From Dialister succinatiphilus YIT 11850 (GTDB lineage Bacteria > Bacillota > Negativicutes > Veillonellales > Dialisteraceae), in the NCBI RefSeq assembly GCF_000242435.1, contig NZ_JH591189.1:6730-42605 (forward strand): 35,876 nucleotides of DNA, read 5' to 3'. How positions within the stretch are numbered: position 1 is the first letter of the stretch; each line of letters starts with the position of its first letter. The notes under the pieces were generated by a model, which was given only the letters and a program-made list of their open reading frames with translations, had not been told where the DNA came from and did no database searches. The position numbers were made by a program, and so were the translations under genes. Below are positions 14,161-23,670 of this stretch, piece after piece.

Positions 14161-14175
14161 GTATGCACAAACGAA

Positions 14176-14280
14176 AGAGGTACCGGAACTGACGGAGAAA
14201 TGTGGAATTGACCACGTGAACCGGTATTATCTGAATCAGCCGACCGTCTGGGCAGGGAAACCTACTCAGACGGTCTTTGC
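14176..14280 (+). ncRNA. ZTP (pfl) riboswitch with terminator
   Basis: P1 is TACCGG (14181-14186) with CCGGTA (14221-14226); inside it GAACTGACGG gives the conserved asymmetric loop, and P2 is GTGG (14202-14205) with CCAC (14212-14215). The second domain is CCGACCGTCTGGGCA (14240-14254), close to the class signature CCGCCTGGGCA. GACGG (14191-14195) is exactly complementary to CCGTC (14244-14248), the expected pseudoknot. The same 3' strand also forms a competing hairpin, 14242-14250 with 14267-14275 followed by TTT. By family knowledge ZMP/ZTP binding should prevent termination and switch on the downstream gene. Confidence 0.88.
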
Positions 14281-16709: not shown

Positions 16710-17894
16710 TTACTGCTGTGCTTCTTCCAGCTTTTCAAGGAAGAACTTCACATTGTCCGTCAGGTTTGGCCCTTCGGTCTGGAGAGCGCCGCCTACGAGG
16801 AAAATGGTATCGGCACCGTAGGTCTTGTACATGTCTTTGAAGAGCTGCCATCTCATGCCGCCGGAGGGGATGGGGAAAATGGGGCGGAGGTAGGCCATTT
16901 TTTCATTGGTGCCTTCGCAGATGTTGGTGCAGGTCTCCCGGGAGAAGGAGAAGCGGCCGCCGAAGCTGGTGAAAATGACGGCGTCGGCGCCGGCCAGGCG
17001 GGAGAGCTGGCCGTAGTAGCAGAAGGGGGAAATGCCCGATTCTCTGGAAAGAACCTGGGGGCCGGAGAAGCAGGGATGGAGGAAAATGGGAAGGTTAAAG
17101 TCCGGATCCCTGGCCAGGTCGCGAATCATGGTGAAACCGGTAATGGCAGGCGCTGCCATGATGCCGTCGGCACCGATTTCCTTTGCCTTGTAAGCCCGAT
17201 CCAGGAACTGGAGGCCGTCGGCGGTGCAGTTGGCAATGTACATGCTCTTTTTACCGGTTTTCTCTTTAGCATCGGCCAGTGCCATGACGCACTGAAGCAC
17301 TCTTTCCTCAAAGGGGGCATAGTCCTGGTTCATGAGGCTGTGGTCGTCTTTGATGATGGGGCAGCCTCCCATGGCCAGGTCGTATACCATCTGTCCCAGT
17401 TCCTTGGGGCTTCTGCCCAGAGGTTTGATGGCGCTCATGAGAATGGGGCCCCGGGGTACGCCGCAGAGATCCCGAAGGCCCGTGCGGCCGAAGCGGGGAC
17501 CGGGATAATTGTCATACATGGCTTCAGGAAGGTCGAAGGACATGAGCTTGATACCGGGCTGGAGGCTTGTATTGCCGAAGAGCATGTTCAGAAGCTCCGC
17601 CATTTCATTGCCCACTGCCGTTGGGTCATAGGAAATGGTGGCGTAGTAGGCGCCGGGCTCTGCTTTTTTCAGGTCTTCGATCTGGCCTACGATGGTATCG
17701 CCGATGGGAGTTCCTTTCACCAGCTCGTAGGGGCATTCTACGGTCTGTTCGACGCAGATGCCAAAAGCCAGTTTCTTGGCTTCTTCATAGTCCGGGGCCG
17801 CAATGCGGTAGGTGGCAGTAAAACGGGAAGACTGGGTCAGGTCTTCTTTCAGCTCTGCAAAAAGTTCGCTTTCAAAAAAAGGGGTATCACTCAT
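16710..17894 (-). CDS. RuBisCO-like protein (form IV), large-subunit family
   Basis: A 394-residue protein with the RuBisCO large-subunit architecture: an N-terminal ferredoxin-like domain (about 20-125) and a barrel with SAIKPLGRS (Lys157), GGCPIIKDDHSL (Lys182, Asp183, Asp184), a LHP strand (His273) and IPSGG/LVGGA phosphate-binding loops. True carboxylases have KDDE where this has KDDH, and the loop-6 lysine of a VGKLEG motif is replaced by FGGRFSF, so it should not fix CO2. Form IV proteins act as enolases, isomerases or decarboxylases in methionine salvage or sugar-acid pathways. No salvage genes are nearby. ATG 17894 follows GGAAGGA; earlier in-frame codons lie in the intergenic region. 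Confidence 0.88.
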   Translation of the reverse strand: MSDTPFFESELFAELKEDLTQSSRFTATYRIAAPDYEEAKKLAFGICVEQTVECPYELVKGTPIGDTIVGQIEDLKKAEPGAYYATISYDPTAVGNEMAELLNMLFGNTSLQPGIKLMSFDLPEAMYDNYPGPRFGRTGLRDLCGVPRGPILMSAIKPLGRSPKELGQMVYDLAMGGCPIIKDDHSLMNQDYAPFEERVLQCVMALADAKEKTGKKSMYIANCTADGLQFLDRAYKAKEIGADGIMAAPAITGFTMIRDLARDPDFNLPIFLHPCFSGPQVLSRESGISPFCYYGQLSRLAGADAVIFTSFGGRFSFSRETCTNICEGTNEKMAYLRPIFPIPSGGMRWQLFKDMYKTYGADTIFLVGGALQTEGPNLTDNVKFFLEKLEEAQQ

Positions 17895-17994
17895 AACTCT
17901 ATCCTTCCCGGCAGGGGACACTGCAAAGGAGCGGGGGCATTCCTCCGCTTCTGCAAGGCAGCCTTCTGCCTTATGAAATTGGAAAAACGGGGAA

Positions 17995-18960
17995 TCACCG
18001 GGGGTTCCCGTTACTGTGGGTTTTATAATAAGGGTTGTCCTCGTGGGCGGCGCTGTCATCGGAGAGCCAGTAGAGGGGGCGGTTTCTTGTTTCTTCAAAT
18101 ACGTGGCCTATGTATTCGCCCAGAATGCCAAGGCACATGAGATTGAGACTTCCGAAAATGGAAATCAGGATGGTCATGGTGGCCCAGCCGGGCACGGCCT
18201 GTCCGGTAATGACGCAGTAGAGGACGTGGAGAATCAGCAGAAATCCGGCAAAGGCGGACAAAAGGCCGATGTAGAAGGAAATGCGCAGAGGGATGGTGGA
18301 ATTGGTAATAATGCCATCCATGGCAAAGTGAATCATTTTCTTCATGGAGAATTTGGAAACCCCTGCATGACGGGCAGGCGCTTCAAACTCGATGGATGTC
18401 TGTCTGAATCCAAGGCCTCCTACGATACCGCGGATGAACCGGCTGTGCTCCCGGAACTTCAGGAACGTATTCAGCGCTTTCCGGTCCATCAGCCGGAAAT
18501 CGGAACCTCCCGGGACCACCCGGGTGGTGGAAATGGAATTAATCACCGCATAGTAGCCGGAGGAGGTTATCTTTTTTAAAAATCCGGCGTCCTCAGTGGC
18601 AGTGCGGATGGTCTGCACAATGTCATAGCCTTCCTGCCATTTTTCGATGAGCTTGGGAATGAGGGCCGGCGGATGCTGCATGTCTCCGTCCATGGTAATC
18701 ACCGCATCGCCTTTGGCAAAGTCCATGCCGCAGGTAATGGCAATCTGGTGCCCGAAATTCCGGGCGAAGGTCAGGGCCCGCACGTGGGGGTCCCGGTCTG
18801 CCAGCTGATGAATCAGCTCGTCCGTGCGATCCCTGGATCCATCATTTACATAAATGATTTCATAATCCATGGCCAGTTCCTTCATGACTTTTGTCACTTC
18901 ATCATGAAAGTATACCACGTTGCCTTCTTCGTTATAGACAGGCGTCACAATTGATATCAT
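17995..18960 (-). CDS. GT2 family glycosyltransferase (GtrB/DPM1-like)
   Basis: A 321-residue membrane-bound enzyme. The N-terminal GT-A domain begins ISIVTPVYNEEGN and shows VNDGSRDRTDELI and the metal-binding DGDMQHPP segment; a RHAGVSKF turn precedes the C-terminal membrane part with two hydrophobic segments (around residues 230-255 and 265-290). This layout matches undecaprenyl-phosphate or dolichyl-phosphate sugar transferases that make lipid-linked sugars for envelope glycans. ATG 18960 is chosen because GGAGG is six bases upstream. The RuBisCO-like gene follows after 100 bases on the same strand and may share the transcript, though the two have no obvious functional link. Confidence 0.9.
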   Translation of the reverse strand: MISIVTPVYNEEGNVVYFHDEVTKVMKELAMDYEIIYVNDGSRDRTDELIHQLADRDPHVRALTFARNFGHQIAITCGMDFAKGDAVITMDGDMQHPPALIPKLIEKWQEGYDIVQTIRTATEDAGFLKKITSSGYYAVINSISTTRVVPGGSDFRLMDRKALNTFLKFREHSRFIRGIVGGLGFRQTSIEFEAPARHAGVSKFSMKKMIHFAMDGIITNSTIPLRISFYIGLLSAFAGFLLILHVLYCVITGQAVPGWATMTILISIFGSLNLMCLGILGEYIGHVFEETRNRPLYWLSDDSAAHEDNPYYKTHSNGNPR

Positions 18961-19219: not shown

Positions 19220-19786
19220 TCAGAATCGGGCATCTTCCGGCTGCATAGCGGCCGATCTTCTTTCGCCCCTGTCATGGTGACGGCCGCCGGGTCTGCCCCG
19301 GCCGGGGTCTTTGTCTTTGTCAAAACGGCGCTGACGGTGCTCATCGAAGCGATGGTCCCGGTCATTATCGTCTTTGTCAAAGCGGCGCTGACGGTGCTCA
19401 TCGAAGTGATGGTCCCGGTCATTATCGTCTTTGTCAAAGCGGTGCTGACGGTGTTCTTCCAGGCGCTGGCTTTCCTCTCTGTCATGGTGACGGAGGGAAG
19501 GGGATGTTTCTCTGTAAGCGCTGCCTTCATTGGCGTCATTTGTTTCTCCGGGACGGGAGACAGGATTTTCCTTTTCTTCCTTCAGTGGCTTATGAATGAC
19601 AGGGCCCCTGGTATTTTCCGCATTGATTAAGGCGATGCGGTAGTCCCGGCCTGTATTGGATACGGGACCGGCAGGTTCGGCAGCCTGCAGGGAGGCGGCG
19701 GATACATCATTTCCCAGGGCGGCGCCGGCGGCAGAGAAGGAAATCAAAAGAGCTGCGGCTAATATGGTTCTTTTCAGGTTTCTCAT
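19220..19786 (-). CDS. Exported His/Asp/Arg-rich repeat protein, probably frameshifted at its end
   Basis: A 188-residue protein with a signal peptide (residues 1-30, likely cut near DVSA). Residues 111-167 hold a 19-residue repeat, EHRQHRFDKDDNDRDHHFD, present twice in full and once in half (57-bp DNA units at 19343-19399 and 19400-19456). The mature chain is very rich in R, D, E and H; metal or polyanion binding is possible but unproven. The reading frame stops at 19220, while the next frame continues to 19183 and ends DEAMIHWHRLIS, matching the DDGMTWHRL end of the neighbouring gene. This suggests a one-base indel near the 3' end. AAGAGGT precedes the start. Confidence 0.7.
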   Translation of the reverse strand: MRNLKRTILAAALLISFSAAGAALGNDVSAASLQAAEPAGPVSNTGRDYRIALINAENTRGPVIHKPLKEEKENPVSRPGETNDANEGSAYRETSPSLRHHDREESQRLEEHRQHRFDKDDNDRDHHFDEHRQRRFDKDDNDRDHRFDEHRQRRFDKDKDPGRGRPGGRHHDRGERRSAAMQPEDARF

Positions 19787-20627: not shown

Positions 20628-21226
20628 TTCGTTTCACCGCCTTTGTCATGGTCGGTGCCGATCAGGCTTGTTTCAATGGCCCGGCTCCCTTCCCTGGCAA
20701 TAAGGTAGATGGAAAGGGCTGTAAAGATACCAAAGCTTCCGATGGAGGCCAGGGTAAGGAAACTGAACTGGGGCAGCGGAGTCATGCCGTGGAAAGGAAC
20801 CAGATTGGTGGAGAAGAGGCCGATGACCAGCCCCGCAGCCGCCAGGACCACGATGGCCATGATGATACCGGCTGCCGTAAGAAGGCGGGCAGTCATGCGG
20901 GCTGTGGCTTCTGCAGCTCCGGGGAGCCGGGGACTTACGGCATCCCAGGTCTTTCCCATCTTGTCCTGGGCGTCCTTAGCCATGTCCAGGGCCCTGCTTT
21001 TCAGCGGGCTGCCTTTGGCCTTTTCATCCACCACTCCTTCGGACTGGAAGGAATTGTAGATATCCTTCGGACTGCCAAGCTCTCTGGCGATTTCTTCCTC
21101 CGAAAGGCCTCTCTTTTTTCCCTCTTCAAAATGGGATTCATAATCGGCCAGGATTTCTTCTACCTCTTCGGTTTTTGCATTTCGGAAATAGTAGCGCAGC
21201 AGATCTAAAAATTCTGTTTCATTCAT
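20624..21226 (-). CDS. DUF1700 (HAAS-type) membrane protein
   Basis: A 200-residue protein. The N-terminal 70 residues carry the DUF1700 signature: a helical start (MNETEFLDLLRYYFRN), EEILADYESHFEEGKKRGLSEEEIARELGSPKDI. Two hydrophobic segments follow (about 114-138 and 150-172). Such proteins are regularly encoded directly after PadR repressors and are thought to be membrane sensors or accessory proteins. The start overlaps the padR stop by 8 bases, and the stop overlaps the next small gene by 4, which indicates tight coupling. Confidence 0.88.
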   Translation of the reverse strand: MNETEFLDLLRYYFRNAKTEEVEEILADYESHFEEGKKRGLSEEEIARELGSPKDIYNSFQSEGVVDEKAKGSPLKSRALDMAKDAQDKMGKTWDAVSPRLPGAAEATARMTARLLTAAGIIMAIVVLAAAGLVIGLFSTNLVPFHGMTPLPQFSFLTLASIGSFGIFTALSIYLIAREGSRAIETSLIGTDHDKGGETK

Positions 21227-21545
21227 GGATATCGCCTCCTTCTTCCAGTATCTTCTTGACGGCTTTTGTAAATTCGGTCCATTCCCTGAGGGATTCTGTG
21301 AATTCCTCCCGTCCGGCGTCGGTGATGCGGTAATATTTTCGGGGAGGACCGTTATGTGATTCCGCCAGGTAGGTATCTACCAGGCCGTCCTTCTTGAACC
21401 GGTTCAGCAGGGGATAAATGGTACCCTCCGACATTTCAATGTACTTTGAAATCTCCGTGACCAGCTCATAACCATAGTAGTCTTTTCGCCTGAGCATAGA
21501 TAGAACCACAATTTCCATGACGCCTTTTTTCAGTTGGATGTTCAT
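21219..21545 (-). CDS. PadR family transcriptional repressor
   Basis: A 108-residue DNA-binding protein with the PadR winged helix: VMEIVVLSMLRRKDYYGYELVTEI, then MSEGTIYPLLNRFKKDGLV (recognition helix) and PPRKYYRITDAGREEF (wing). The short C-terminal helix for dimerisation is present. It should repress its own operon through the large palindrome at 21640-21674. AAAGGA precedes the start. It leads an operon with DUF1700 and a small charged protein. Confidence 0.93.
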   Translation of the reverse strand: MNIQLKKGVMEIVVLSMLRRKDYYGYELVTEISKYIEMSEGTIYPLLNRFKKDGLVDTYLAESHNGPPRKYYRITDAGREEFTESLREWTEFTKAVKKILEEGGDIHE

Positions 21546-21633: not shown

Positions 21634-21674
21634 AATATATCACAAAGTACTTTGCAATGCAAGGTACTTTGTGA
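21634..21674 (-). promoter_or_regulatory. padR promoter with PadR operator palindrome
   Basis: On the minus strand TTGCAT (21662-21657) and TATATT (21639-21634) are 17 bp apart. TCACAAAGTAC (21640-21650) and GTACTTTGTGA (21664-21674) form an 11-bp inverted repeat extended inward by TTTGCA/TGCAAG, so the operator covers the spacer and -35. This is the usual position and look of a PadR site. Confidence 0.8.
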
Positions 21675-21747: not shown

Positions 21748-21776
21748 TTGACGGATGGAAGAAAATCATGTATCAT
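21748..21776 (+). promoter_or_regulatory. Promoter of the T-box transcript
   Basis: TTGACG (21748-21753), 17-bp spacer, TATCAT (21771-21776). Confidence 0.7.
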
Positions 21777-21799
21777 CATAGCCATATCAAAACCAGTAC

Positions 21800-22112
21800 A
21801 TGCTGTGAACGAGAAGGAAACAGACAGGAAGCTTCAGAGAGCCGGCGTATGGTGAAAGCCGGTGCGGAAAATCTGCGGACTATCACTCGTGAGCTTCCTG
21901 ATTGAAAGAATTTCCGTAAATCAGGACGGAAGTCCCCGTTACAGGACAGGCCTTCAGAGTATAATGCAGGGTGGTACCGCGATTTCGCCCCTGTCCCATG
22001 GTGGACAGGGGCTTTTTGTTTCCTCCCTTCCTATGCCTGGCGGCTGAGAGATAAACCGGAGTGGTACCGCGCCATGCGCCTCTGTCTGATATTTCAGATA
22101 GAGGCTTTTTTT
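21800..22112 (+). ncRNA. T-box leader with two antiterminator/terminator platforms (Ile specifier likely)
   Basis: Stem I is closed by GGAAGCT (21827-21833) with AGCTTCC (21892-21898); the AG bulge AGAGAGCCGG and GGTGAAAGCCGG follow the class pattern. A probable specifier is ATC (21882-21884, Ile), followed by A. The T-box sequence AGGGTGGTACCGCG is at 21968-21981, then terminator GCCCCTGTCC/GGACAGGGGC (21987-22012) with five T. A second GAGTGGTACCGCG at 22059-22071 is followed by another terminator (22078-22089 with 22094-22105) and seven T. The second platform has no stem I of its own. Confidence 0.85.
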
Positions 22113-22174
22113 ATGGCTCCTCCGGGAAGAGTGAAGATTGCACATGTGCTATTTCATCCAAAGGAGAAATGAAA

Positions 22175-23323
22175 ATGATGGACTGGAAAAAAGGACTCAA
22201 ACTGGCAGGCCTTGGCCTTATGATGACAGCTGCATGTGCAGGACTTTCCGGCTGCGGCGGAAAGGGAGAAGGACAGGGCAGCGGAAAGACCGCCAAGGTA
22301 GGCTTTATCAACGGCGTTTCCGGCGGCGTGGCTTCCTACGGCCTGGCGGAAAAAGAAGGCTTTGACATGGCGGTGGATGAAATCAACAAAGAAGGAAAAA
22401 TCCACATGGATGTGGAAATGGTGGACACCAAGGGCAATGTGCAGCAGGCGGTGGCGGCGGCCCAGAAACTCATTGCCGCTAAAAAGGTGATCGTGGTGGG
22501 ACCTTTGATTTCCGGTGAATACAAGGCAGTGGGGCCTCTTTTCCAGCAGGCGAAGATTCCCCTTCTGGGCGTGGCCACCACGGCGGAAGGGCTTATGGAT
22601 ATAGGAGACTATATGTTCCGGAACTGCGTACCGGAATCGAAAAATATCCCCCAGACTGTTGAGAAAACCCATAAACTCCTGGGCTATAAGAGAGTGGCCG
22701 TGCTTTATTCCAACAACAATGAGCATCAGGTGTCCGCGTACAAGACCTTCAAAAAAGCACTGGAACAGGAGGGCGTGGAAATCGTGGCGACAGAAACCTT
22801 TGCTGATAAGGACACGGATTTTTCCGCCCAGCTCACCAAAATCCACAATGCCAATCCTGATGCCGTGGTGGTGGCAGGCTACTACCAGGAAGGAGGGCTC
22901 ATCCTCAAGAAAATGAGAGACCTGGGCATGAACCAGCCGGTACTGGGAGACAACGGTTTCATGTCTCCGGAACTGGTGAAAATTGCAGGTCCTGCAGCAG
23001 ACAATGTGTACGTATCCTCCATGTGGTCCCCGGACAGGGACTCCGAGGCTACAAGAAAATTTGTGAAGGACTTCCGGGAGCGGTATAATCATGACCCCGA
23101 CAACTTTGCCGCCTGCGCCTATGTATCGGCCAAGCTGGCAGCCAAAGCCATGGAAAATGCAGGCACCACCACGGATTCCAAAAAGGTGCGGGACGCCCTG
23201 GCCCATATCAAAAACTTTGAAAGTGCCGCCGGCCCCATGACCTTCAACAACTCCGGAGACCCGGAAGTGGACCTGGTGCTTCTGAAAGTGGAAGACGGGA
23301 AATATAAGGCAGTGAAAGTGTAA
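22175..23323 (+). CDS. Branched-chain amino acid ABC transporter substrate-binding lipoprotein (LivJ-like)
   Basis: A 382-residue exported binding protein of the periplasmic binding protein 6 class. The N-terminus has a lipobox LSGCGG (Cys near 26). The mature part starts KVGFINGVSGGVASYGLAEKEGFDMAVDEINKEG, a typical Leu/Ile/Val-binding opening, and includes AAAQKLIAAKKVIVVGP and PDAVVVAGYYQEGG. ATG 22175 is chosen because AAGGAG at 22161-22166 is 8 bases away; an ATG at 22169 is too close. No permease or ATPase genes adjoin it, so it must work with LivHMGF encoded elsewhere. The T-box leader in front supports an amino acid substrate, probably isoleucine. Confidence 0.93.
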   Translation: MMDWKKGLKLAGLGLMMTAACAGLSGCGGKGEGQGSGKTAKVGFINGVSGGVASYGLAEKEGFDMAVDEINKEGKIHMDVEMVDTKGNVQQAVAAAQKLIAAKKVIVVGPLISGEYKAVGPLFQQAKIPLLGVATTAEGLMDIGDYMFRNCVPESKNIPQTVEKTHKLLGYKRVAVLYSNNNEHQVSAYKTFKKALEQEGVEIVATETFADKDTDFSAQLTKIHNANPDAVVVAGYYQEGGLILKKMRDLGMNQPVLGDNGFMSPELVKIAGPAADNVYVSSMWSPDRDSEATRKFVKDFRERYNHDPDNFAACAYVSAKLAAKAMENAGTTTDSKKVRDALAHIKNFESAAGPMTFNNSGDPEVDLVLLKVEDGKYKAVKV

Positions 23324-23389: not shown

Positions 23390-23670
23390 GCTTCCTGCCG
23401 GGGTGGATACCCATGTGTATCACTGTCATAGGAAACTTTTCGCAGCCAGTTTCCTGTCGGTGTGGATGCCCTATGTGTATCATCACCATAGGAAACCCTT
23501 CGCAAGCAGTTTCCTGCCGGTAAGAATGACCAAAGTGTAACACTGGCATGGGAAAATTTTCGCGAACAGTTTCCCGCCGGTATGGATGCCCCATGTGTAT
23601 CATCACCATAGGAAACCCTTCGCAAGTAGTTTCCTGCCGTCATGAATGACAAAAGTGTATCATGCTGCCA
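23390..23670. repeat. 60-bp tandem repeat, about 4.6 copies
   Basis: Units start with TTTCCTGCCGG at 23450, 23510, 23570 and 23630 (exact 60-bp steps), with a first 59-60 bp unit from about 23390. Units 2 and 4 are most alike and share ATGTGTATCATCACCATAGG. Each unit contains TTTCCT near its start and AGGAAA about 40 bases later, so each can form a hairpin. Because the period is divisible by three, several frames stay open, giving 20-residue repeat peptides; no ribosome site supports any of them. Confidence 0.9.

Follow-up and report, generated by a model that had tools for sequence, protein, structure and literature searches.

T-box leaders are usually treated as one tRNA sensor coupled to one switch. 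The leader of a LivJ-like gene in Dialister succinatiphilus YIT 11850, located within the 35,876-nucleotide stretch of DNA analysed here (the window), raises the question of how a single sensor can serve two terminators placed in series. A reading made from the sequence only had described this leader as a T-box with one Stem I, a probable AUC (Ile) specifier and two complete antiterminator/terminator platforms, controlling an orphan LivJ-like lipoprotein. The leader and its gene consist of the following elements.

21748..21776, plus strand: promoter-like TTGACG-17-TATCAT (consensus scan, 10/12 matches)
21802..21894, plus strand: Stem I, the single tRNA anticodon/elbow sensor (RF00230 alignment, model 7-103)
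21882..21884, plus strand: specifier AUC (Ile), followed by A (specifier column of the RF00230 alignment)
21895..21950, plus strand: Stem II and the Stem IIA/B region, with F-box CCGTTA (RF00230 alignment)
21957..21965, plus strand: purine-rich AGAGUAUAA, the Stem III flanks (RF00230 alignment; kept in relatives)
21966..21994, plus strand: antiterminator 1, with helix A1 GCAGGG/CCCUGU, bulge UGGUACC at 21972-21978 and helix A2 GCG/CGC (model match)
21987..22017, plus strand: terminator 1, 10 bp (hairpin 21987-22012) and a T tract, overlapping the 3′ half of antiterminator 1 (fold, terminator scan)
22046..22055, plus strand: purine-rich GAGAGAUAAA ahead of platform 2, the counterpart of 21957-21965 (as GAGUGAUAAA in relatives)
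22057..22084, plus strand: antiterminator 2, with helix A1 CGGAG/CUCUG, bulge UGGUACC at 22062-22068 and helix A2 GCGC/GCGC (model match, covariation)
22078..22112, plus strand: terminator 2, 12 bp (hairpin 22078-22105) and a T tract, overlapping the 3′ half of antiterminator 2 (fold, terminator scan)
22160-22166, plus strand: Shine-Dalgarno sequence AAAGGAG of the LivJ-like gene
22175..23323, plus strand: LivJ-like branched-chain amino-acid substrate-binding lipoprotein (Pfam Peripla_BP_6, 216 bits)

Rfam reported one RF00230 match in the window, at 21796-21995 (105.2 bits, above the gathering cut-off of 93; E 1.9e-22; model positions 1-219). The Stem I of this match has a specifier ending in C, and its apical T-loops AGAGA and GGUG were aligned. 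Stem III itself was absent from both copies of the module, appearing as a deletion in the RF00230 alignment. The ~40 nt that separate antiterminator 2 from the T tract of terminator 1 contained no second Stem I with a specifier. By the features tested, the leader is a T-box and not a full tandem T-box; it combines one sensor with more than one antiterminator/terminator, the layout of a partially tandem T-box. The gene located 3′ of it is amino-acid related, its product having PRK15404 (LivJ) as the best NCBIfam match, under the cut-off of that model.

The T-box sequences, AGGGTGGTACCGCG at 21968-21981 and GAGTGGTACCGCG at 22059-22071, placed the two platforms 90 nt apart, and both platforms contained the same UGGUACC bulge. 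A covariance model trained on first platforms alone, in which one paralogue row is identical to the window's own platform 1, gave exactly two significant matches in the window, 21966-21994 (E 1e-12) and 22056-22085 (E 2.5e-7). The second GTGGTACCGCG can fold as CGGAG-UGGUACC-GCGC(CAU)GCGC-CUCUG. Since the 3′ half of this antiterminator is the 5′ half of the terminator, antiterminator 2 and terminator 2 are mutually exclusive, and in both platforms an antiterminator with a UGGN bulge excludes a terminator. The terminator hairpins reached -22.0 kcal/mol (z -4.3) and -21.7 kcal/mol (z -7.4), respectively; the scan found four terminator-like sites in the region, compared with a mean of 0.5 in shuffles, and these two were the only strong ones. 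Judged by its sequence, platform 2 is a real antiterminator. The two-platform layout stays hidden in standard annotation because Rfam reports the first platform only. The anatomy given by the sequence-only reading was thereby borne out at each point, from the single Stem I, its AUC specifier and the sensor-free stretch between the platforms to the T-box positions, the strong terminator after each and the LivJ-like target; the outcome that it had named as fatal, a second T-box unable to form an antiterminator, did not occur.

Relatives of the leader also retained platform 2. In 26 distinct leaders, 97% of the cells of the platform-2 antiterminator helix were paired, whereas shuffles reached 88% and slid controls no more than 70%. 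Two-sided changes were found in 23 cells of this helix, with 7.8 expected from shuffles, and this covariation is partly shared by descent among paralogues, so that it represents fewer events than cells. The second pair of helix A1, invariant in first platforms, was G-C in 16 leaders and A-U in 10. A purine stretch of the type that flanks Stem III, which presumably binds the tRNA/T-box duplex (PMC7583486), was present ahead of both platforms. We also looked in the linker between the platforms for a conserved hairpin resembling Stem III; the 31 linkers had no common fold, sharing only the purine-rich GAGUGAUAAA. The comparison with livJ-orthologue leaders, proposed with the sequence-only reading, came out in its favour: orthologues of the window livJ found by protein search kept both platforms while the linker had diverged (L021, L022), and a 63% paralogue had two platforms with the variant UGGUAAC in its first bulge (L023). 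The pattern that collected most leaders required the T-box core, and conservation of the bulge is independent evidence only in leaders reached by protein.

A pattern search for leaders in which nothing but a terminator and a short linker stands between two T-box cores matched 9 of the 12 family genomes, 29 of the 61 genomes sampled from the order (two kinds of leader included) and 19 of 398 genomes (~5%) drawn evenly from the phylum. The reversed pattern, used as a control, gave zero matches in all genomes searched. A pattern with a wider gap added further cases, two Veillonella-family genomes among them. The sensor-platform-platform arrangement (SPP) is a lineage-wide design and not a single oddity. 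One Leu T-box leader, located before a LivJ-like gene, even carried three platforms in series (L077 1502-1685; G011:C13:9548-9741).

A second kind of two-platform leader, with 61-80 nt spacing, was also observed (L002 ~1685-1747, L070, L075, L078, L083, L092, L101-L109, L114-L120). In its first terminator the T-box's own GGGUGGUACC pairs with GGUACCACCC ahead of the T tract, and because of this pairing the 3′ strand of the terminator includes ACCA and so mimics the tRNA 3′ end in cis.

Within the Dialister genome, 37 T-box matches were read as ~35 leaders, ~10 of which had two platforms. All five Peripla_BP_6 (LivJ-type) genes were preceded by two-platform leaders; the specifiers other than that of the window were read by eye from the same position.

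C3:29021: LivJ-type gene of the window, specifier Ile
C1:37374: LivJ-type gene, specifier Ile
C1:240094: LivJ-type gene, specifier Leu
C2:216579: LivJ-type gene, specifier Leu
C2:209052: LivJ-type gene, specifier Val

The further targets of two-platform leaders were a methylisocitrate-lyase-like gene (Val), a membrane protein (Ile), serC (Ser) and a polar amino-acid binding protein. The gene that follows the Val two-platform T-boxes L065-L068 is methylisocitrate-lyase/PEP-mutase-like, which one would not expect to be under valine control, and the leader before serC (L153, minus strand, G000:C1:78223-78498) has a probable UCC (Ser) specifier. The genome contains a single LivH gene, followed by livM- and livG-like genes, and the orphan binding proteins therefore probably share one permease. 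No tRNA-Ile was found among the loci of the genome that were scanned for anticodons.

The leader of the LivHMGF operon contained two complete sensors head to tail, CUC (Leu) and then AUC (Ile), with no platform between them and two platforms after them. In two relatives, Rfam recognised the first sensor of the livH leader as Stem I alone. The paired-sensor layout occurred in 7 of the 12 family genomes and, among the matched sequences, nowhere else in the phylum sample. Two platforms follow the Leu CUC and Ile AUC sensors in L198/L098 (G000:C1:21834-22263), L072, L074, L076, L079 and L082. Repeated platforms recur on the whole Liv uptake system. A two-codon T-box, reportedly described by Saad et al. 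in 2013, is said to have one Stem I with two codons and to bind two tRNAs; it and the livH leaders both address two tRNA identities from one leader, whereas the livH leaders do so with two whole Stem I-Stem II units.

In one single-contig genome (G001), the two sensors of the livH leader (L159) are followed by one platform. The 5′ flank of this platform is like platform 1 of the orthologues and its 3′ part like platform 2 (L009: 42/47 aligned positions vs 25/50), meaning that it apparently arose by recombination, as a natural platform deletion. Because two sensors serve one platform here, there is no fixed one-to-one link between sensors and platforms. From their layout, the dual-sensor livH leaders are candidates for a natural OR gate, most clearly in G001. 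According to PMC9481103, OR logic has not been naturally observed in tandem riboswitches and could arise from two interacting ON switches, which the livH leaders resemble.

On balance, we consider it probable that the window leader is a transcriptional tRNA-Ile T-box in which one sensor is followed by a duplicated discriminator/terminator module, acting as a double checkpoint with hand-over of the same tRNA. RNA polymerase would meet two conditional terminators in series, each switched off only when its own UGGU bulge pairs with the uncharged ...ACCA 3′ end, and both would have to be defeated for expression. One tRNA-Ile would stay anchored on Stem I and open platform 1; once the polymerase has moved past it, the same tRNA-Ile may pass its free 3′ end to platform 2, as the topology of the leader suggests, with flexible RNA tethering platform 2 to the Stem I-bound tRNA. 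The gene would then be read only with uncharged tRNA-Ile held through two successive decisions, and the expected benefit would be a multiplicative suppression of leaky transcripts. Platform 2 would also be expected to respond to tRNA in the cell. The sharing of one platform by two sensors in G001 supports a loose coupling of sensor and platform. Taken one step further, one bound tRNA interrogated twice, with its 3′ end passed from platform to platform, could make the leader a kinetic-proofreading T-box, and the Leu and Ile leaders of livH could be natural OR gates, since a sensor could serve any downstream platform; we put this forward tentatively, as a possibility that falls short of being the expected one.

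The intact UGGU bulge and antiterminator of platform 2 could also point to two tRNAs acting in turn, tRNA-Ile on Stem I opening platform 1 and a second uncharged tRNA binding platform 2 by its NCCA end alone. The six two-sensor/two-platform leaders have as many sensors as platforms, in line with such a scheme. Nevertheless, the window leader has no second specifier or Stem I. Anchoring of the anticodon and elbow normally provides the affinity and specificity of a T-box. The second tRNA would miss this anchoring, and a four-base contact would answer to any uncharged tRNA with discriminator A. We regard this scheme as unlikely. Of the two mechanisms offered by the sequence-only reading, one tRNA beating both terminators and two tRNAs in succession, the first is favoured because platform 2 lacks a separate site for anchoring a tRNA.

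Could platform 2 be an insurance terminator only, which has lost its tRNA response and cuts the leak by a fixed factor? In 27 of 30 leaders the strength of the last terminator exceeded that of the first (mean -26.0 vs -20.7 kcal/mol; Wilcoxon p 5e-7), and three platform-2 copies had an A-C mismatch in the second pair of helix A1 (L005, L051, L071), as would suit such a role. On this view it would be unexplained why platform 2 shows compensatory change in A1 and has kept A2 and the flanking purines, and we find this explanation unlikely as well.

A coupling of the platforms by RNA pairing appeared decidedly unlikely. As a relay, the 3′ arm of terminator 1, freed by antiterminator 1, would pair with the 5′ arm of terminator 2; as a veto, T-box 1, free when terminator 1 forms, would pair with the quasi-palindromic T-box 2 and block antiterminator 2. 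Both pairings can form in the window, with -17.7 kcal/mol for the relay and -25.5 kcal/mol for the T-box:T-box duplex, and the latter is part of the minimum-energy fold of the whole leader, but both follow automatically from the repetition of the T-box. Across relatives, neither pairing was stronger within a leader than between the parts of leaders combined at random (fraction of permutations as good, 0.12 for the relay and 0.26 for the T-box:T-box pairing).

Full tandem T-boxes are common in Bacillota (PMC12452182), but recent decay of one by loss of its second Stem I is highly improbable, as the short linker is repeated in many paralogous leaders and genera, a stretch like the Stem III flank precedes platform 2, as duplication of the discriminator module alone predicts, and no Stem I lies between the platforms in any relative examined, within or outside the family, so that the full second Stem I which the sequence-only reading had named as contrary evidence did not appear. 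The leaders examined outside the family were either single-platform or of the same two-platform layout.

In terms of known systems, the window leader has the Stem I with specifier, Stem II, F-box region, UGGN bulge, antiterminator and terminator of a transcriptional T-box (RF00230), but contains the discriminator/terminator module twice and misses Stem III in both copies. "Partially tandem" T-boxes were mentioned in a 2020 review, with modes of action unknown and no anatomy given (PMC7583486); they presumably have the same layout. The present analysis adds to that mention that the layout pervades a lineage, that its second antiterminator covaries, that the genes under its control follow a logic, and that variants exist with three platforms or with a platform naturally deleted. 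In a survey of contiguous riboswitches, T-boxes figure as complete tandems (PMC12452182); fully tandem T-boxes, such as those of trp, thrS and ilv, likewise place two terminators in series before the gene, but they carry two complete sensors and presumably require two tRNAs, whereas the window leader has one sensor. Unequal numbers of sensors and platforms are also found in the tandem glycine riboswitch and in interactive aptamer logic gates (PMC9481103). The glycine RNAs, with two sensors and one platform, are the inverse of SPP, and one sensor with several platforms is not among the types of tandem architecture listed in the passages of that survey covered here. The G001 livH leader has the 2:1 ratio of the glycine RNAs, but for two different ligands, both ON.

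Evolution has altered the sensor:platform ratio to 1:2, 1:3, 2:2 and 2:1 in closely related genomes, within one coherent transport system. Such natural variants allow a direct test of the way in which partially tandem T-boxes act, and of whether several transcription decisions can follow from one ligand-binding event, or from one starvation signal. Among them, the 2:1 and 2:2 leaders are candidate OR gates, a type missing from natural RNA logic.

We must also note some neighbours of the leader in the window. Just 3′ of livJ, imperfect direct repeats with a 60-nt unit occupy 23409-23648. A PadR-family regulator gene (21219-21545, minus strand) lies beside a 17+17 nt palindrome, TCACAAAGTACTTTGCA/TGCAAGGTACTTTGTGA, at 21640-21674; the palindrome is located just upstream of the T-box promoter and is probably the operator of the PadR-family gene. 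Farther upstream, we observed a ZMP/ZTP riboswitch (14175-14260, 57.9 bits) and a RuBisCO-like protein (16710-18098, minus strand), for which the nearest NCBIfam models were those of 2,3-diketo-5-methylthiopentyl-1-phosphate enolase, under their cut-offs. The open reading frame list also contained a predicted secreted protein (19220-19786, minus strand) with charged tandem repeats, HRFDEHRQRRFDKDDNDRDH.
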